From Haloarchaeobius amylolyticus (GTDB lineage: Archaea > Halobacteriota > Halobacteria > Halobacteriales > Natrialbaceae): a stretch of 64,000 bases of DNA. The stretch is taken from the NCBI RefSeq assembly GCF_026616195.1, contig NZ_JANHDH010000002.1, forward strand, positions 992,001-1,056,000, written 5' to 3'. Shown here piece by piece: positions 3,112-62,091 of the stretch; the first letter of the stretch is position 1; every line of letters starts with the position of its first letter. The position numbers were made by a program, and so were the translations under genes. Below the pieces are notes generated by a model. The model searched no databases and was not told where the DNA came from. It was given only the letters and a program-made list of their open reading frames with translations.

Positions 3112-4643
3112 TGGCAGGACACATGGACCTGCAGTGGCTCGCACCGGCGATCGTGCTGGGTCTGACCGGGCTGCTGTTGCTCATCGTCGACAGTATCGAC
3201 CCGCGGACGCGCAACCGCCGGCTCCTCTCCGGCATCTCGACGGCCGGCGCACTGACCGCGCTGGTCACCGCGGTCGCCCTGCTGGCGACCTACGGTGACC
3301 TCGCGAACGCGCCCGCGAAACCGCTCGGCGAGTCGCTCGTCGTCGACCAGATGGCGCTGCTGTTCGCCGTCATCGTCGCGAGCGTCACCGCCATGGTGAC
3401 CCTCGCGAGCTACAACTACATCGCGGACCACAGCTACCAGGCCGAGTACTACGCGCTCGTCCTGCTGGCCGCGACCGGGATGACGCTGATGGCGTCGGCG
3501 AACTCGCTGGCGACCGTCTTCGTCAGCCTCGAACTCGCCTCGCTCCCGTCGTACGCGCTCGTCGCGTTCCTCAAGAAGAACCGCGGCAGCGTCGAGGCGG
3601 GGCTGAAGTACTTCCTCATCGGCGCACTGTCGAGTGCCGTCTTCGCGTACGGTATCAGCCTGGTGTACGCCTCGACCGGCTCCCTGCTCCTCTCGGACGT
3701 GCAGGCAGCCATCGGCGGCGACGCCTCGGGCCTGCTCGGCATGGGTGTCGTGATGGTCGTCGGCGGCATCGCCTTCAAGACCGCCTCCGTCCCGTTCCAC
3801 TTCTGGGCGCCGGAGGCCTACGAGGGCGCACCCGCCCCCATCAGCGGCTTCCTGTCGTCGGCCTCGAAGGCCGCCGGCTTCGTCATCGCCTTCCGTGTCT
3901 TCACGGAGGCGTTCCTCGCGGTCTCGGAGTCCGCCGGGCAGTTCATCGTCCTCGGCGCGGACTGGGTGCTCATCTTCCAGATCCTCGCCGTCGTCACGAT
4001 GACGCTCGGTAACTTCGCCGCCGCGACCCAGACGAACGTCAAGCGCATGCTCGCGTACTCCTCCATCGGGCACGCCGGCTACGTCCTCATCGGACTCGCC
4101 GCGCTCACCGGTGGTGGCCCGGGCGTCGCTGCCAAGATCGAGGCCGGGCAGTTCGTCCTCGCCGGCAGCATGCTCCACCTGTTCGTCTACGGGTTCATGA
4201 ACACGGGCGCGTTCCTGTTCATCGCGCTCGCCGAGTACTGGGACGTCGGCCGGACGTTCGAGGACTACACCGGACTCGGGCGGCAGGCCCCGCTGGCCTC
4301 CGTCGCGATGACGGTGTTCATGTTCTCGCTGGCCGGGCTCCCGCCGTTCGGCGGCTTCCTCAGCAAGTACCTGCTGTTCGGCGCGGCCGTCGACAGCGGG
4401 TTCTGGTGGCTCGCCGCCTTCGGCGCGGTGAACAGTGCCCTGAGCCTGTTCTACTACAGCCGGGTCGTCAAGGCGCTCTGGATCGACGACCGCCCGGAGA
4501 GCAAGAAGCCGCTCTCGGTCGGCAGCCGACCGGTCGGCATCTACACCGCCGTCATGTTCGCGGCCGTCGTCACGGTCGTGATGTACGGCTTCTTCGGCCC
4601 GCTCTCTGACGTGGCCGTCGACGCCGCTGGCGCCCTGCTGTAG
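3111..4643 (+). CDS. nuoN: NADH-quinone oxidoreductase subunit N
   Basis: This is the third antiporter-like subunit of complex I, 510 residues. The motif HFWAPEAYEGAPAPISGFL identifies NuoN. It is multi-helical throughout. The ATG at 3111 overlaps the nuoM stop by one base (TGATG) and has a good ribosome site, GGAGGTGG at 3097-3104, which supports this start over the ATG four codons downstream. It is the last gene of the nuo operon visible here. The next gene has its own promoter after about 55 nt. Confidence 0.95.
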   Translation: MAGHMDLQWLAPAIVLGLTGLLLLIVDSIDPRTRNRRLLSGISTAGALTALVTAVALLATYGDLANAPAKPLGESLVVDQMALLFAVIVASVTAMVTLASYNYIADHSYQAEYYALVLLAATGMTLMASANSLATVFVSLELASLPSYALVAFLKKNRGSVEAGLKYFLIGALSSAVFAYGISLVYASTGSLLLSDVQAAIGGDASGLLGMGVVMVVGGIAFKTASVPFHFWAPEAYEGAPAPISGFLSSASKAAGFVIAFRVFTEAFLAVSESAGQFIVLGADWVLIFQILAVVTMTLGNFAAATQTNVKRMLAYSSIGHAGYVLIGLAALTGGGPGVAAKIEAGQFVLAGSMLHLFVYGFMNTGAFLFIALAEYWDVGRTFEDYTGLGRQAPLASVAMTVFMFSLAGLPPFGGFLSKYLLFGAAVDSGFWWLAAFGAVNSALSLFYYSRVVKALWIDDRPESKKPLSVGSRPVGIYTAVMFAAVVTVVMYGFFGPLSDVAVDAAGALL

Positions 4644-49843: not shown

Positions 49844-50245
49844 TCATTCGGTCCCGGCCGTCGAGCCGCCGTCGGTCTCGACGCGCTCGGGGGCGGTCTC
49901 GTCCTCGTCGCCGCCCTCGGTCGAGATCCACTCCTCGGCCCACTCGCCGATGGCGTCGAACACCGGGCAGAGCGACTCGCCCTTCTCGGTCAGCGAGTAG
50001 TAGGTCGCGACGGGGGCGTCCTCCTCCAGCCGGCGGTCGACGAACCCCATCTCCTGGAGGTCGTCGAGCACCCGCGAGAGGGTGCGCGAACTCGCGTCGG
50101 TCGAGCGCTTGAGCTCGTTGAAGCGCTTCTCACCGCCCTGCAGGTCGTGCAGGACGACGAGTCGCCACTGCGAACCGATCTGTTCGAGGGAGTCGATGAC
50201 GGGACAGGCAGCCGCGTTGGGGTTCTCGTCGGAACTCGTCGCCAT
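49844..50245 (-). CDS. HxlR family transcriptional regulator
   Basis: This is a 133-residue winged-helix regulator. ACPVIDSLEQIGSQWRLVVL opens the domain and contains the conserved Cys of HxlR proteins (residue 14); RFNELKRSTDASSRTLSRVL is the recognition helix region, and SLTEKGESLCPVF holds a second Cys (about 93). The acidic tail is typical of haloarchaea. HxlR proteins often sense aldehydes, quinones or redox stress through Cys. The promoter contains an inverted repeat (50277-50292). The neighbouring glyoxalase operon is a possible target but its operators look different. Confidence 0.88.
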   Translation of the reverse strand: MATSSDENPNAAACPVIDSLEQIGSQWRLVVLHDLQGGEKRFNELKRSTDASSRTLSRVLDDLQEMGFVDRRLEEDAPVATYYSLTEKGESLCPVFDAIGEWAEEWISTEGGDEDETAPERVETDGGSTAGTE

Positions 50246-50276
50246 TGCCCCACCGTTGGCCGCCGCCACACTTAGA

Positions 50277-50292
50277 GGTTCGTATCCGAACC
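50277..50292. promoter_or_regulatory. Inverted repeat in the hxlR promoter
   Basis: GGTTCG and CGAACC are exact reverse complements separated by TATC. The repeat is 32-47 nt before the hxlR start, next to the predicted TATA (CTAAGT on the minus strand, about 50270-50275). A second overlapping pair, AACCAG (50289-50294) and CTGGTT (50309-50314), shares the AACC half. Autoregulation by HxlR is a reasonable inference. Confidence 0.4.
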
Positions 50293-50320
50293 AGCTATCA
50301 GATGAGAACTGGTTTGCCGA

Positions 50321-51031
50321 CTACCCCATCGCCGCGAGCCGGTCGAGGACCTCGTCGGTCGTCCGGGCGTCGTAGGTCCAGAACCCGTAGAACTCGTTGT
50401 CGCCGGTCTCCTGGGCGAGCAGCGCAGCCTTGCGGTCGTCGCGACCGTTCCCGTCGTAGACGACCCACCAGTGCTTCGTGACCTCCTTCGCGTCGCTCGC
50501 GTGGACGGTGAGGTCGAGGTCGTCCGGGCGCTCCCAGTCGGCCTGCCCGTAGACGTGGACGTCGAGGTCGCTCCGGGAGAGGTTCCGGTAGACGTTCCGC
50601 TGGAAGTCGACCTTCGAGAGCTGCTGGAACCCCGAGTGGAGGGTCCCCTCCCCATCGTTCCACGCCCGGAACTCGACGTTGCGCGACGCCATGATCATCC
50701 GACGCTTGTCGTACGACCGGAAGCGCGTCCCGTCCAGATGCTGGATGACGGCGGGAATCTCCGCACGGTCCGACGGCTGGTCGTCCCGGCTGGCGAACCG
50801 GGCGACCGTCTGGATCGAGTTCGCGGCGACGAATCGCCCGTCGGACTGCAACACGAGGGTGTCCCTGGGCTGGCCAGACGCCGTCTTGTCCTTGACCTTC
50901 TCCACCTCGTGCTTCGAGAGGAACCGACTCACGGTGGCCAGCGCGCTCTCGTCGGTCACGTTGCAGGCGTGCAACGTCTTCGATTGGAGGTCCGTCTCGC
51001 CGACGATGCGCCCGAGTGGTTTCGTAGTCAT
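50321..51031 (-). CDS. Probable DICT sensory domain protein
   Basis: This is a 236-residue soluble protein. VARFASRDDQ, FRSYDKRRMIMASRNVEFR and FYGFWTYDARTTDEVLDR resemble the DICT domain found in haloarchaeal and cyanobacterial signalling proteins. The middle has GTLHSGFQQLSKVDFQRNVYR and DVHVYGQADW. No catalytic or DNA-binding part is attached. A possible TATA (CATACCTAAC) lies about 40 nt upstream on the minus strand. The family call is from memory of the motif pattern and should be taken as likely rather than proven. Confidence 0.5.
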   Translation of the reverse strand: MTTKPLGRIVGETDLQSKTLHACNVTDESALATVSRFLSKHEVEKVKDKTASGQPRDTLVLQSDGRFVAANSIQTVARFASRDDQPSDRAEIPAVIQHLDGTRFRSYDKRRMIMASRNVEFRAWNDGEGTLHSGFQQLSKVDFQRNVYRNLSRSDLDVHVYGQADWERPDDLDLTVHASDAKEVTKHWWVVYDGNGRDDRKAALLAQETGDNEFYGFWTYDARTTDEVLDRLAAMG

Positions 51032-51135: not shown

Positions 51136-51168
51136 TGACATCGATGTCCCCTGGTGACACCACTGTCA
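51136..51168. promoter_or_regulatory. Two tandem TGACA-N4-TGTC operators
   Basis: TGACATCGATGTCC (51136-51149, containing the perfect 12-bp palindrome GACATCGATGTC) and TGACACCACTGTCA (51155-51168) share the same half-sites and spacing. Their starts are 19 bp apart, so both face nearly the same side of the helix. They end 5 nt before the TATA region of the glyoxalase operon, the place for an activator or a repressor that blocks TBP/TFB. Confidence 0.6.
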
Positions 51169-51172
51169 GATT

Positions 51173-51180
51173 AGGTATAT
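51173..51180 (+). promoter_or_regulatory. TATA box of the glyoxalase-esterase operon
   Basis: AGGTATAT lies 26-33 nt before the ATG at 51206, right after the tandem operators; it also rules out the upstream in-frame ATG at 51179 as start. Confidence 0.55.
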
Positions 51181-51205
51181 GTCCGTGGGGTCCCTAGGAT
51201 GGTCC

Positions 51206-52153
51206 ATGCAGACAGACGGTATCCACCACGTCACCGCGGTCGCCAGCGACCCCCAGCGGAACGTGGACTTCTACACCGAGGTCCTCGGGCTGCGGCTGGT
51301 CAAGCGGACCGTGAACTTCGACGACACGTCGACGTACCACCTCTACTACGGCGACGAGACGGGCACGCCGGGGACCATCCTGACGTTCTTCCCCTTCGAC
51401 GGCGGCCAGCAGGGCCAGCCCGGGAAGGGACAGGCGACGGCCACCGCGTTCGCCATCCCCGAAGGCGCGGTCGACTACTGGCTCGACCGGTTCGCGACGC
51501 TGGACGTCGACCACGACGAGCCCCTGTCGCGCTTCGACGAGACGGTCGTCCCCTTCCGCGACCACGACGGCCAGCCGATGGAACTCGTCGCGACCGACAC
51601 CGACGACGCCACCGACCTCGAGCCCTGGACCGAGAGCCCGGTCCCTGCCGAGTACGCCATCCGCGGGTTCCACGGTGTCACCCTGCACTCGATGGACCCA
51701 GACGTGACCGGGTCGGTCCTCGAGACCCTCGGCTACGAGCGCGCCGCCGAGAGCGACGACCGGGTCCGCTACCGCGTCGGCGGCGACCGCGCCAGCGTCG
51801 TCGACGTCTTCCGTGGCGTCGGCGGCCGCGGGGTCCCCGGCGCGGGCACGGTCCACCACGTCGCCTTCCGGGTGCCCGACGACGCGGCACAGGAGGCCAT
51901 CGCGGCCGACCTCGACGAGATCGGCCTGTACGTCACCGAGCAGAAGGACCGCAACTACTTCCGGTCCATCTACTTCCGCGAGCCCGGCGGGGTGCTGTTC
52001 GAGGTCGCCACCGACGACCCCGGGTTCACCGTCGACGAACCGGCCGAGACCCTGGGGACCGAACTCAGGCTCCCGGCGTGGCTCGAGGACGACCGCGAGC
52101 AACTGGAGGCGAGCCTGCCCTCGCTCTCCGCCCCGGAGGTGACGAGCGAGTGA
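51206..52153 (+). CDS. VOC family ring-cleaving dioxygenase-like protein (MhqO-like)
   Basis: This is a 315-residue protein made of two vicinal-oxygen-chelate modules. DGIHHVTAVASDPQRNVDFY opens the first; GFHGVTLHSMD and AGTVHHVAFRV belong to the second; metal-ligand candidates are His7, His in VHHVAF and Glu in LFEVATDDPG. The pattern matches MhqO/YkcA-type ring-cleaving dioxygenases that in Bacillus detoxify quinones and act with an esterase. The gene is first in a three-gene operon and overlaps the esterase by four bases (GTGA). Confidence 0.85.
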   Translation: MQTDGIHHVTAVASDPQRNVDFYTEVLGLRLVKRTVNFDDTSTYHLYYGDETGTPGTILTFFPFDGGQQGQPGKGQATATAFAIPEGAVDYWLDRFATLDVDHDEPLSRFDETVVPFRDHDGQPMELVATDTDDATDLEPWTESPVPAEYAIRGFHGVTLHSMDPDVTGSVLETLGYERAAESDDRVRYRVGGDRASVVDVFRGVGGRGVPGAGTVHHVAFRVPDDAAQEAIAADLDEIGLYVTEQKDRNYFRSIYFREPGGVLFEVATDDPGFTVDEPAETLGTELRLPAWLEDDREQLEASLPSLSAPEVTSE

Positions 52154-52854
52154 GTTCCGGCGTCCACCAGGACCAGCCACTCGCCAGCGCGGGCGCCCCA
52201 CTCGCGGTCGCCGACGGCGCGGTGGTCATGTGCCACGGCCGCGGCGCGAGCGCCCGCAGCATGCTCGCGATGGCCGACGAGTTCCTCGAACACGGCGTCG
52301 CGTTCCTCGCTCCGCAGGCCCAGCGCGGCACCTGGTACCCGAACTCGTTCATGGCCCCCATCGAGTCGAACGAGCCCTACCTCACCTCGGCGCTGCAGGC
52401 CGTCGAGGACGCCGTCGAGACGGCGAGAGAGGCGGGCATCCCGTACGACCGCATCGCACTCATGGGCTTCTCGCAGGGGGCCTGCCTCGCCAGCGAGTAC
52501 GTCGCCCGGAACGCCCGGCGCTACGGCGGCCTGATGGCGCTCTCGGGCGGGGTCATCGGACCCGAGGGCACGCCCCGCGACTACGAGGGGTCGCTCGAGG
52601 GGACGCCGGTGTTCCTCGGGTGCAGCGACGTGGACCCGCACATCCCACTCGAACGGGTCGAAGAGACGACGCAGGTGTTCGAGCGCCTCGATGCCGACGT
52701 GACCGAGCGCATCTACCAGGGGATGGGCCACACGGTCAACGAAGACGAGATCGAGCACGTCCGCGACATCGTCGCGGGGCTGGTCGACAGCGACGGCGAC
52801 GACGGTGAGGACGGTTCGGACGGCCCGAAGGCAGCCGACGAGGGTGAGAACTGA
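52150..52854 (+). CDS. Carboxylesterase/phospholipase family hydrolase (MhqD-like)
   Basis: This is a 234-residue alpha/beta hydrolase. The nucleophile Ser108 is in GFSQG, the acid is Asp160 or Asp162 in CSDVDPHIP, and the His is His194 in GMGHT. CHGRGASA forms the oxyanion loop. The last 25 residues are acidic. In Bacillus the MhqD esterase is encoded with MhqO and both respond to quinone stress, so a role in clearing electrophilic products is likely. The start GTG at 52150 overlaps the previous stop; the next gene begins immediately after the stop. Confidence 0.86.
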   Translation: MSSGVHQDQPLASAGAPLAVADGAVVMCHGRGASARSMLAMADEFLEHGVAFLAPQAQRGTWYPNSFMAPIESNEPYLTSALQAVEDAVETAREAGIPYDRIALMGFSQGACLASEYVARNARRYGGLMALSGGVIGPEGTPRDYEGSLEGTPVFLGCSDVDPHIPLERVEETTQVFERLDADVTERIYQGMGHTVNEDEIEHVRDIVAGLVDSDGDDGEDGSDGPKAADEGEN

Positions 52855-53862
52855 GTGACTGGACACGACGACGAGTCCCGGCCGGAGACCGGGACGGCGG
52901 ACGGGCCGCCGCCGGTCACCGGGCTCCACCACGTCTCCGCGCTCTCGGGTGACCCCCAGACAGTCGTCGACTTCTTCGCCGACGTGCTCGGCCTGCGCCT
53001 CGTCAAGCGCACCGTGAACTACGAGGACCAGTTCGCCCACCACGTCTACTTCGGTGACGGGGCCGGGAGCCTCGGTTCCCTGCTCACGCTGTTCCCGTCC
53101 AACGCCGGCCCCGACGGGCGGGTCGGGCCGCCTCAGCCCGGTGCCACCGCGCTGGCGGTGCCCCCGGACTCGCTCGACTACTGGGGCGGTCGGCTCGCCG
53201 ACCACGGTGTCGAGGTGACCCGGTTCTCGCGCTTCGACGAGCAGGGCCTCGCGTTCGAGGCTCCCGACGGGCTCCCGCTGGAACTCGTCGGTGTGCCGAG
53301 CGCGAGCGTAGCCGAGGCCGCGGTCTGGGATGCCGGGCCGGTCCCGGCCGAGCACGCGATTCGGGGCCTCCACGGGACGACGTTGCTCTCACCCGCGCCC
53401 TACCAGACCGCCCGCGTCCTCGAACACTTCGGGTACGACCTCGCGGGCGAGACCGACGACCGGGTTCGCTACCGGGCGTCCGGGGAGCGCGCGACCGTGG
53501 TCGACCTGTCGCTCCGGGGAGCCGGCGACGGCGCGCCGGGCGGGTTCGGCCGTGACGGGAAGGGGACCGTCCACCACGTCGCCTTCAGCGTGCCAGACCG
53601 CGACGCCGTGCTGGCGTGGCACCGCCGGCTGCGCGACCTCGGGCTGGAGCCGACCCGCGTCAAGGACCGGACGTACTTCCAGTCGCTGTACGTCCGCGAA
53701 CCGGGCGGCATCCGGTTCGAACTGGCCTCCGCCGGGCCGGGCCTGACGGTCGACGAACCCGAGAGCGACCTCGGCGGCTCCCTCCAGCTCCCCCGCTGGG
53801 TCGAGGACGACCGCGACGAGATCGAGAAGCGGCTGCCGCCGGTCGAGTGGCCGGACCGCTGA
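52855..53862 (+). CDS. Second VOC family dioxygenase-like protein
   Basis: This is a 335-residue paralogue of the first VOC protein, sharing VLGLRLVKRTVN, IRGLHGTTL, GTVHHVAFSV and FELASAGPGL with its fold. It has an extra polar N-terminus of about 20 residues. The GTG start directly follows the esterase stop with no gap, so translation is coupled. Two related VOC proteins around one esterase suggest different substrates or a heteromeric enzyme. Third and last gene of the operon. Confidence 0.85.
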   Translation: MTGHDDESRPETGTADGPPPVTGLHHVSALSGDPQTVVDFFADVLGLRLVKRTVNYEDQFAHHVYFGDGAGSLGSLLTLFPSNAGPDGRVGPPQPGATALAVPPDSLDYWGGRLADHGVEVTRFSRFDEQGLAFEAPDGLPLELVGVPSASVAEAAVWDAGPVPAEHAIRGLHGTTLLSPAPYQTARVLEHFGYDLAGETDDRVRYRASGERATVVDLSLRGAGDGAPGGFGRDGKGTVHHVAFSVPDRDAVLAWHRRLRDLGLEPTRVKDRTYFQSLYVREPGGIRFELASAGPGLTVDEPESDLGGSLQLPRWVEDDRDEIEKRLPPVEWPDR

Positions 53863-55641: not shown

Positions 55642-56015
55642 CAGCGATCACCTCGGATGCGCTCCCAGATTCGCGCGAAGCGCTCGGCGACGTCTTCGTT
55701 CGGTTCCACGTGCGTCCTTACGCCGTCGCCGTCGATGTCGACGCCGACGTGTGTAATCGTTGCCTGGTACATTTTGTGGTGGTCTCCCGACATGTCGACG
55801 CGAAGACGCTCGTCGATCAATCCATCTCCCTCGAGTTGTTCCAGTCGTCGATAGATCGTCGATAGCGAGACGTCGACGTGATCCGCGAGCTCGTTGGCCG
55901 ACCGTGGTTGGTCGCTCGTCCGCGACAGGATTGTCCGCGTGGTGTCGTCTGCCAGTGCTCTGAACAGGGCGTTCTCGTTCAGGTCCCAATCATCACGGGG
56001 GAACGATTCGTCCAC
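55641..56015 (-). CDS. Winged-helix (ArsR-like) transcriptional regulator
   Basis: This is a 124-residue regulator. ALFRALADDTTRTIL, the helix pair ANELADHVDVSLSTIYRRLEQL and GDGLIDER form the winged helix; the rest has VDMSGDHHKMYQATI. I placed the start at GTG 56015; a TTTAAG box about 27-33 nt upstream supports it, while the longer frame would run into the promoter of the divergent exported-protein gene. The two divergent genes share the 127-nt control region. No metal-binding Cys is seen, but His-His in GDHHKMY is present. Confidence 0.8.
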   Translation of the reverse strand: MDESFPRDDWDLNENALFRALADDTTRTILSRTSDQPRSANELADHVDVSLSTIYRRLEQLEGDGLIDERLRVDMSGDHHKMYQATITHVGVDIDGDGVRTHVEPNEDVAERFARIWERIRGDR

Positions 56016-56142
56016 GACGCTCCTACGAAAGATTACGACCCACTTAAACACCCTCACTATTGAGCGAATCCCAAACTGGATTTGCAAGGGGTGTGAACGC
56101 GCTCAGGGCTCTATTATCACGGTGGCTCGATGTTCACCTGTG

Positions 56143-59913: not shown

Positions 59914-60947
59914 CGTGAGGTGTTGTACGCTGGTTCTGACTGGAACGTTTCGCGGTACGAGATGGTTGGGGTGTCGTACTCGACCGTGACGCCGGCACGC
60001 CAGACGATATCGGTATAGTACTGGCCGGAGCCGGGCGTGCCAGTGGCTTCCTGGTACTGCGCGGACGAGACGAACTCGCCGGGTTCGCTGAGGACGAACG
60101 AGTAGGTCCCCGACGCGTTCTCCGAGTCACGGAACCAGATGTCGTAGCCCTCGGAACCGGTCTCGTAGTCGATACCGTCGGTGAAGTTGAACGTACACGA
60201 GGTCCCTTCGACCGTCCCCTCGGAGACGTCGACCTCGAACGTCGACCCGACCGCCATGTCGTTGCACGCAGACGTCGGTGATTCCATCTGGTCATACCAG
60301 TTGCCGGGAGCAGAACCCGACCCGTGGGCGACCGCGAGGTCGATACCGGCCCCGCTATCGTTGTAGATGCGGACGACGCGCCACTCCTCGGCGCCGGTCT
60401 CGTTGGTTCCCTTGACCGCGATGTGGAACGAGTCGGTCGCCTGGTTCGACAGCTGTGACCGGGTAAGGTCCATCTCGAACCGGACGATCTCGGAGGGCGT
60501 GCTGTCGGTCAGGTGCCAGTTGTCGCTCCCGGTGTCGTCCGGGTCGTCGTAGAAGTCCGACGTGTTCGTCTGGAACACCCGGACGCCGTACTTGGTGTTG
60601 CTCTGGTTGTAGTTAATGTCGACGAGCGCTGCGGAATCCTGGGCATAGGACTCCTGCAACAGGGTACTGTAGTTCGATGCGTTCTGCGAGAGGAGCGTGT
60701 CCCGGCCCGCCCTGTCCATGTTTCCCTCGTTCACGTATCGGGCTATCTGACCCATCGTGTCTGCACTCACGCGTTCGACAGCCTCGGAGTCGTCCACCGC
60801 GATACCACTGCCCGTGCTGTCGACGTTCTCCGTGAACAGCACCGTATTGAACACGACCACGATGCCGAGGATGATGAACGCGATGGCGACCGCGCCGACC
60901 AGCACCAACTGTGCCCGCGACCGGGGGCCGTCGTCGAGGCCTACCAT
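59910..60947 (-). CDS. Pilin-like exported protein 3
   Basis: This is a 345-residue protein with start MVGLDDGPRSRAQLVLVG and one N-terminal hydrophobic helix, then a large Asn/Ser/Thr-rich extracellular domain with many N-glycosylation sequons (NAS, NQS, NTS, NET, NDS) and two Cys. The long frame continues upstream with Arg/Gln-rich antisense-like residues, so I cut it at 60947. It overlaps both neighbours slightly. It may be a large minor pilin or adhesin-like tip component. Confidence 0.7.
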   Translation of the reverse strand: MVGLDDGPRSRAQLVLVGAVAIAFIILGIVVVFNTVLFTENVDSTGSGIAVDDSEAVERVSADTMGQIARYVNEGNMDRAGRDTLLSQNASNYSTLLQESYAQDSAALVDINYNQSNTKYGVRVFQTNTSDFYDDPDDTGSDNWHLTDSTPSEIVRFEMDLTRSQLSNQATDSFHIAVKGTNETGAEEWRVVRIYNDSGAGIDLAVAHGSGSAPGNWYDQMESPTSACNDMAVGSTFEVDVSEGTVEGTSCTFNFTDGIDYETGSEGYDIWFRDSENASGTYSFVLSEPGEFVSSAQYQEATGTPGSGQYYTDIVWRAGVTVEYDTPTISYRETFQSEPAYNTSR

Positions 60948-61582
60948 ATGACGATGCGCACCTCCACGACGTTGTACACCGGGCTGTTCGGTGCGGCGTC
61001 CCTGATGGGGAACTCGCTCTTGCTGGTCTCCCAGAGCTCCGGACAGCCGGGTTGACATCCCTGTCCGGTCAGCGTCTGGTTGTCGTACAGCGTCACCGTG
61101 TAGGTCGCCACGATGGCGGACTCGGTCGGGACGCCACGGTAGACCATCCGCTCGGACCGGGTGATCGTCGGGTCCGAGGGGTGGCGGTAGGAGACGATGA
61201 TATTGTACTCGCGGCCCTGTTCGCCGAACGTCTGGTTCAGCATCGCACCGAACTGTGTCCCGTCCGCGTCACAGGTCGTTATATTGGGTGGTGGGTCGGG
61301 CCCGTAGCCGATGCGTTCGTCGATGGCACCCGCGAAAGTGTCTTCGCTCGAGGTGCCGTTCCAGTGCCGTATCTGGCACGAGAGCGACTCCTCCTGGGCG
61401 CTGATGGTGAGGACGTCGTCCGCCTCGACCCGCAGCTGTTCCTGTACGTCACGACTCACCTTCCCGGAGGTCGTCGGCATGATGACGACAGACTGGAGGG
61501 CGAAGAGGACGGCCGCGAGGACGAGGACCGACCCGATGAACCCTTCCAGCGTGTACGCCTGTGCGCGTTCGTCCTGTCTCAT
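60941..61582 (-). CDS. Pilin-like exported protein 4
   Basis: This is a 213-residue protein starting MRQDERAQAYTLEGFIGS with one hydrophobic helix of about 20 residues, then an exterior with Cys in LSCQIRH, TTCDADG and GCQPGCP. The start at 61582 was chosen over one ten codons upstream because RAQAYTLEG directly precedes the helix, as in the family. The end overlaps the next gene by 7 nt. Confidence 0.7.
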   Translation of the reverse strand: MRQDERAQAYTLEGFIGSVLVLAAVLFALQSVVIMPTTSGKVSRDVQEQLRVEADDVLTISAQEESLSCQIRHWNGTSSEDTFAGAIDERIGYGPDPPPNITTCDADGTQFGAMLNQTFGEQGREYNIIVSYRHPSDPTITRSERMVYRGVPTESAIVATYTVTLYDNQTLTGQGCQPGCPELWETSKSEFPIRDAAPNSPVYNVVEVRIVIW

Positions 61583-61584
61583 GA

Positions 61585-62091
61585 TTACCACACCTTCACC
61601 ACGACGAAACACTGCACGTCACAGCGGTCGCCGGTGAGGACGACGACGCGTGACGTGGACGCTGCCGGTGTCTGTCCCTCGTAGTCGGTCCCGGCAGTCA
61701 GGTTGCCGGACCCGTCAGCCAGGACCTCTCTCGTCCCGTTGTCGTAGACGTTGACGATGGTGATGTTGACGTCGGCAGTACTTCGCAGCCCGAAGTGGTC
61801 CTGGAGCGCGGACTCGTTGTTCGTACTCGCCAGGAAGCTCTCGAGCTGGGTGTAGTTCAGCGTTCGGGGCTCGCCGTCGACGTGGTTCTCCTCGATGAGC
61901 GTCGCGGCGACCCGGTCGGACTTCGCCGTGATGTCGTCGCCGAGGGGCGAGCCGAAGGGCGTCAGCAGGCTCGGGAGGAACCCGAAGGTGAACCCGACCG
62001 TCAGCAGGAAGATGCTGATGCCGATGGCGAAGTCCTGGGTCGTCTGGGCGCGGTCGTCGCCGCACTCGATAGTTGTTCCCACCGATTTCAT
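61585..62091 (-). CDS. Pilin-like exported protein 5
   Basis: This is a 168-residue protein starting MKSVGTTIECGDDRAQTTQDF with the hydrophobic helix IGISIFLLTVGFTFGFLP, then a beta-rich domain ending with GDRCDVQCFVVVKVW (possible disulfide). It lies directly after the PilC-like gene with 5 nt between, so it is probably translated with it. It could be a minor pilin recognised by the machine. Confidence 0.7.
   Translation of the reverse strand: MKSVGTTIECGDDRAQTTQDFAIGISIFLLTVGFTFGFLPSLLTPFGSPLGDDITAKSDRVAATLIEENHVDGEPRTLNYTQLESFLASTNNESALQDHFGLRSTADVNITIVNVYDNGTREVLADGSGNLTAGTDYEGQTPAASTSRVVVLTGDRCDVQCFVVVKVW

Follow-up and report, generated by a model that had tools for sequence, protein, structure and literature searches.

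Two closely spaced palindromes stand in front of a dioxygenase-esterase operon in the haloarchaeon Haloarchaeobius amylolyticus, within a stretch of 64,000 nucleotides that was analysed as a whole (the window). They raise the question of which protein reads them, and to what end. An earlier note on this DNA had taken them for tandem operators of a specific regulator of quinone or aldehyde detoxification and had found the regulator not obvious. The comparative evidence points instead to an HxlR-type gene (hxlR) 0.94 kb away, and the paired site, which we call operator A, is most likely the predicted binding site of its product.

Paired palindromes upstream of the dioxygenase operon

Operator A was modelled by an EM motif search as a 37-bp tandem motif at 51136-51172 (plus strand), including a BRE-side tail. 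Its distal dyad, TGACATCGATGTC, at 51136-51148 (plus), was assigned by sequence inspection and the held-out matrix score of the tandem; its proximal dyad, TGACACCACTGTCA, at 51155-51168 (plus), by sequence and the presence of the same tandem in 42 out of 42 best homologous loci. The two dyads are 19 bp apart, start to start, and the distal site contains a perfect palindrome, GACATCGATGTC, at 51137-51148. A TATA-like element, TATATG, follows at 51177-51182 (plus), about 10 bp after the last GTC of operator A and 29 bp before the dioxygenase start at 51206; it was assigned from the sequence and from an A/T peak at fixed offset in 44 promoters. The earlier description of the two sites, their spacing, the palindrome and their position before the TATA region was accurate.

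A matrix trained without the window and its nearest relative, L139, gave the window tandem 36.3 bits, against 3.2 bits for the next best score on that strand within 14 kb. With the full matrix, the tandem reached 39.9 bits and the next best scores in the window were 3.4 (plus) and 4.2 (minus); the maximum over 30 simulated sequences of 64 kb, one strand scored, was 18.0 bits. The window tandem is far beyond chance. A third exact copy of the single site, TGACATCCCTGTC at 61053-61065, lies inside a predicted gene (60941-61612, minus). It was considered as a further operator and dropped, being a single site within a predicted gene, and is probably a chance occurrence.

The operon comprises three genes on the plus strand. 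The first, VOC1 (51206-52153), is a predicted MhqO-type ring-cleaving dioxygenase: its residues 2-310 align to MhqO (phmmer, 3oaj, E=3e-83), as expected of a full-length two-module VOC protein, and it also matches 2,6-dichloro-p-hydroquinone 1,2-dioxygenase (4huz, E=1.7e-51). The HH, VHH and LFE motifs of both proteins are kept in VOC1, and we take these motifs to hold its iron ligands. Its start was placed at 51206 (ATGCAGACAGACGG) because several homologues begin with the same residues, and is probably leaderless. The second gene, EST (52150-52854), encodes an MhqD-like phospholipase/carboxylesterase (PF02230, E=4.7e-22; 4h0c, E=1.8e-52), and its GTG start overlaps the VOC1 stop. A second VOC/dioxygenase-like gene (52855-53862; PF00903, E=7.6e-24) completes the operon.

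Conservation and reach of the tandem motif

Homologues of the dioxygenase were found in 283 out of 392 sampled genomes of the order (E<=1e-60). We fetched 60 homologous loci in score order and searched 61 promoters, window included. The EM search returned one tandem motif, TGACAccGGtGTcACCTGgTgaCaCcg..GTCcGcGA, with a posterior of 1.00 in 44 out of 61 promoters. Whole-locus scans with leave-one-out matrices ranked the tandem first in each of the 42 best homologues (L139-L180), which are 55-86% identical and span seven families (f1, f4, f5, f6, f7, f12 and f17), with scores of 22.6-42.3 bits. It stands there before VOC1 or before the gene just upstream of VOC1; in 8 of the 42 loci VOC1 is preceded by a co-directional gene and the tandem stands ahead of that gene, some 600 bp upstream of VOC1. 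Among the 18 more distant homologues, the VOC1 promoter of two (L194 and L195) carries a site scoring 20 bits or more, L188, L189 and L191 have theirs about 0.9 kb upstream of VOC1, before other genes, and the remaining 13 have neither. Tandem sites also occur at 4470 and -4564 relative to VOC1 in L186, where several lie within 13 kb; the sites in L186, L188, L189 and L191 may mark larger regulon clusters.

A homologue search of genome contigs returned mostly Alphaproteobacteria, with one haloarchaeon among the 80 matches kept. This genome, Halobellus rarus YC21 (L029), has a divergent hxlR, an operator A of 39.6 bits and the VOC1-EST pair. Across 44 sites, A/T content peaks about 9-15 bp after the last GTC at a constant offset, indicating a rigid spacing between operator and TATA box. 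As far as the genome sequences speak, the paired sites are real and conserved across the order.

A genome scan, as suggested in the earlier note, had different outcomes for the single half-pair and for the tandem. In the 4.6-Mb genome, TGACA-N4-TGTC gave 15+13 matches against 14+12 for the reversed control, which is no enrichment; since the single motif is no commoner than its control, the finding rests on the tandem arrangement. The tandem pattern (<=1 mismatch) was present in 53 out of 117 genomes, and its reversed control in none of the 117. Equal frequency inside genes and absence from orthologous promoters, the observations that the note had named against its proposal, were not found for the tandem. 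With conserved orthologous promoters and a shared regulon, the claim of tandem operators for a specific regulator before a detoxification operon was supported.

Three distinct tandem sites with no more than one mismatch occur in the window genome, and all are followed by a TATA-like element at 9-10 bp. One belongs to the window operon, another stands before a second VOC gene (L229:842-1462, minus), and the third before a gene with a LUD domain (start at 1374 in L231, minus; C2 near 347646). Elsewhere, the genes that follow tandem sites encode DoxX, LUD, VOC and carboxylesterase proteins; this target list is incomplete, as a simple codon score called no gene on either side in 6 out of 30 scan loci. 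LUD-like genes also stand after sites in L258, L260, L266 and L267. The identities of the genes (MhqO-like dioxygenase, carboxylesterase, DoxX and VOC genes) suggest a role of the regulon in quinone/electrophile detoxification, and to that extent support the earlier proposal. The haloarchaeal set resembles the CatR/YodB regulon in content (PMC6212828), as well as the QsrR and MhqR regulons of S. aureus (PMC6798810).

An HxlR-type protein as candidate regulator

The candidate binder is encoded at 49844-50269 on the minus strand, with a likely ATG at 50245. It is an HxlR/DUF24-type regulator (PF01638, E=1.5e-21) whose HxlR winged-helix domain scores 76.5 bits over a cut-off of 20.8, and its sequence matches the structures of YodB, HypR (YybR), HxlR (7bze, 7bzd) and QsrR. 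An hxlR orthologue is the divergent upstream neighbour of VOC1 in 25 out of 61 loci, a count that includes the window and L139, where a DICT gene lies between, and some others with the VOC1-upstream gene between. Among the sites for which an hxlR position was listed, 21 out of 35 lie within 150 bp upstream of hxlR (35 being 60 minus 25 in genomes without a listed position, own-genome and both-strand duplicates removed). Orthologues are present in 360 out of 392 genomes, most of which hold a single one at this similarity; the window genome has seven HxlR-family genes in all. The motif was found in none of the 21 genomes without an orthologue (E<=1e-30) versus 53 of the 96 with one (Fisher 7e-7, phylogeny ignored), and, among genomes at least 90% complete, in 0 out of 10 versus 48 out of 87 (0.001, phylogeny ignored).

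In 45 distinct hxlR loci, the divergent partner gene varies (DoxX, EST, VOC1 or VOC4) and hxlR is constant. The motif beside hxlR and a divergent target were both present in 29 of these loci and both absent in 13; two had the motif only and one the target only. Being repeats of L203 and L206, L268 and L269 were excluded from the hxlR-locus and cysteine counts, and the intergenic site of 3 of the 45 (L204, L207 and L223) was also in the training set. Autoregulation of hxlR through form A, suggested by adjacency, was rejected, because the motif tracks the divergent target (29+13 of 45 concordant). Form A therefore belongs to the targets, and a second form, operator B, to hxlR. In L272 (G259), the hxlR locus has neither operator A nor B nearby, and the same genome has A before VOC1.

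Operator B emerged from a separate EM search on the 45 hxlR promoters, as tGGTaTCATTacGtTACCTGGTTC.a.tcCGAACCt.TaT in 44 of them, window included. The window copy, at 50272-50311 (minus), is a variant tandem just before the hxlR TATA-like element; its proximal dyad is perfect (GGTTCGGATACGAACC, GGTTCG-N4-CGAACC) and its distal dyad degenerate. The core ACCTGGT and the tandem layout are common to A and B, with a distal dyad of 17 bp in B versus 18 bp in A, and both forms presumably bind the same protein. Form A was not found at the window hxlR promoter: the earlier statement that this promoter has no such motif is correct for TGACA-N4-TGTC and overlooks the related tandem.

Of the 61 loci, just the window and L139 have a DICT-domain gene (50321-51031, minus; PF10069, E=1e-8) inserted between the dioxygenase operon and hxlR. 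It splits what elsewhere is often a single divergent promoter, which explains why the link to hxlR had been missed. The DICT protein may sense and modulate the same response. In L243, L245, L246, L248, L249 and L251-L253, the called hxlR start falls inside the operator A of the divergent gene, in its CGATGTCA half, and binding there could block that start.

An N-terminal cysteine at the start of helix 1 is found in 68 out of 69 distinct HxlR orthologues, aligned with the N-terminal cysteine of YodB and HypR; a second cysteine is present in 51 of the 69. We propose that the protein is a thiol-based electrophile sensor. The window protein reads C-P-V-I-D at this position and has no Cys-X-Lys crosslink pair; formaldehyde sensing of the Bacillus HxlR type was rejected, as the lysine partner is missing.

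Predicted mode of action and relation to known systems

We consider it likely that both palindromes belong to a single operator, on which two dimers of the HxlR encoded at 49844-50269 would sit. From its constant position just ahead of the BRE/TATA of a probably leaderless promoter, operator A would control the ring-cleaving dioxygenase, the carboxylesterase and the second dioxygenase-like protein. Through its conserved N-terminal cysteine, HxlR would sense electrophiles (quinones, catechol products, perhaps aldehydes) and switch a small regulon, here the window operon, the second VOC gene and the LUD-domain gene, and elsewhere also DoxX and esterase genes; it would act on its own gene through operator B. 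Physical binding, stoichiometry, inducer and sign are what we infer from sequence comparison. Regarding the sign, we lean slightly towards activation over repression by BRE occlusion, because the operator lies directly upstream of BRE/TATA at rigid spacing.

Repression holds a smaller, still appreciable share of our confidence. HxlR on operator A would then block TFB/BRE entry and leave upon cysteine alkylation or oxidation, much as YodB and CatR repress the catDE dioxygenase operon (PMC6212828); the resemblance in gene content to the QsrR and MhqR regulons (PMC6798810) and the conserved motif tail, which abuts or overlaps the BRE region, fit this mode as well. However, a whole tandem upstream of TATA at rigid spacing suits an activator, and Bacillus HxlR is an activator according to its PDB entry name, with FA-enhanced DNA binding (PMC7835342).

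More tentatively, a single HxlR might run a regulon against electrophiles across the order, with two operator grammars, A for targets and B for hxlR, each a tandem dyad locked to BRE/TATA, with the pair in a shared intergenic region serving as a bidirectional toggle. In such a short region, A would cover the hxlR start and B would lie downstream of the target TATA: occupation of A would turn detoxification on and hxlR off, and occupation of B would do the opposite. The DICT sensor-domain gene would have split this toggle in the lineage of the window.

A single dimer on the palindrome at the junction of the two sites (GTCACC-T-GGTGAC in relatives), with this as the functional dyad and the outer halves secondary, is unlikely. 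Matrix complementarity does peak there, at centre 17 (0.57), between centres 7.5 (0.61) and 26.5 (0.43), and the ACCTGGT core shared by A and B falls to its credit, but symmetry is highest at the distal dyad, and the window junction, GTCCCCTGGTGAC, is imperfect whereas both outer dyads are near perfect.

That another regulator binds the tandem, hxlR being only one more target with a neighbouring promoter, seems to us quite improbable. The candidates would be an HxlR paralogue, the DICT protein, the ArsR-like protein at 55644-56087 or a global regulator. The seven family members in the window genome, the window hxlR promoter without form A and the DICT gene as immediate divergent neighbour would accommodate this. 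Yet most genomes hold one orthologue, hxlR is the one gene constantly beside the sites while the targets change, genomes without it also lack the motif, and the DICT gene adjoins in just 2 out of 61 loci. Chance palindromes, or a conserved DNA or RNA feature without a regulator, would agree with the unenriched single motif and have a negligible probability given the held-out scores in 42 out of 42 loci and the zero reversed-pattern matches in 117 genomes.

Under the preferred reading, a detoxification system found across haloarchaea, in which we found little on quinone and electrophile sensing, would gain a regulator together with its operator and regulon. Full-text searches of open-licence PMC papers listed none that describes an operator or regulon of a haloarchaeal HxlR; PMC11665356 and PMC3403918, on haloarchaeal genomes, just count or list HxlR genes. 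Systems of this kind are known from Firmicutes, and the one described here is best read as an archaeal equivalent of the YodB/CatR/QsrR regulons for quinones and electrophiles.

Within haloarchaea, OxsR of Haloferax volcanii is likewise a thiol-based regulator with sites upstream of BRE/TATA, though of the TrmB family and with a CG-repeat motif (PMC9426492). OxsR was rejected as binder: its motif is CG-rich, inspection of 51136-51172 revealed no CG repeat, setting the operator apart from the OxsR-regulon motif, and the words glyoxalase, dioxygenase and HxlR have no occurrence in the OxsR text (PMC9426492). The formaldehyde-sensing activator HxlR of Bacillus subtilis shares the family, by sequence (7bze, 7bzd), and the N-terminal cysteine; it differs in its target operon and in its Cys11-Lys13 crosslink pair (PMC7835342), where the window protein reads C-P-V. 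In S. aureus, QsrR is an HxlR-family sensor whose conserved N-terminal Cys5 is alkylated by quinones, and mhqED pairs a dioxygenase with a phospholipase/carboxylesterase (PMC6798810); the window HxlR, with its sequence match and conserved cysteine, parallels the former, and VOC1-EST the latter. MhqR itself is of MarR type and uses one inverted repeat that spans the start site (PMC6798810), in contrast to an HxlR-type regulator and tandem dyads upstream of TATA.

As in the CatR/YodB-catDE system of Bacillus subtilis, a DUF24/HxlR regulator is combined here with a VOC-type ring-cleaving dioxygenase. CatD is a DoxX protein. The word DoxX does not occur in PMC6212828, which describes CatR and YodB as MarR/DUF24 repressors of the catechol dioxygenase operon catDE and two CatR boxes in its promoter, paired in one promoter as here. 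The haloarchaeal operator motif was derived independently of the CatR/YodB operator. Unlike catDE, the haloarchaeal system has an archaeal BRE/TATA promoter, esterase, LUD and VOC genes in its regulon, a regulator usually divergent from a target and another form of the operator in front of the regulator gene itself. This suggests that the DUF24 thiol-sensor strategy of Firmicutes may also work on an archaeal TBP/TFB promoter, where the rigid operator-TATA spacing makes the sign of regulation directly testable.
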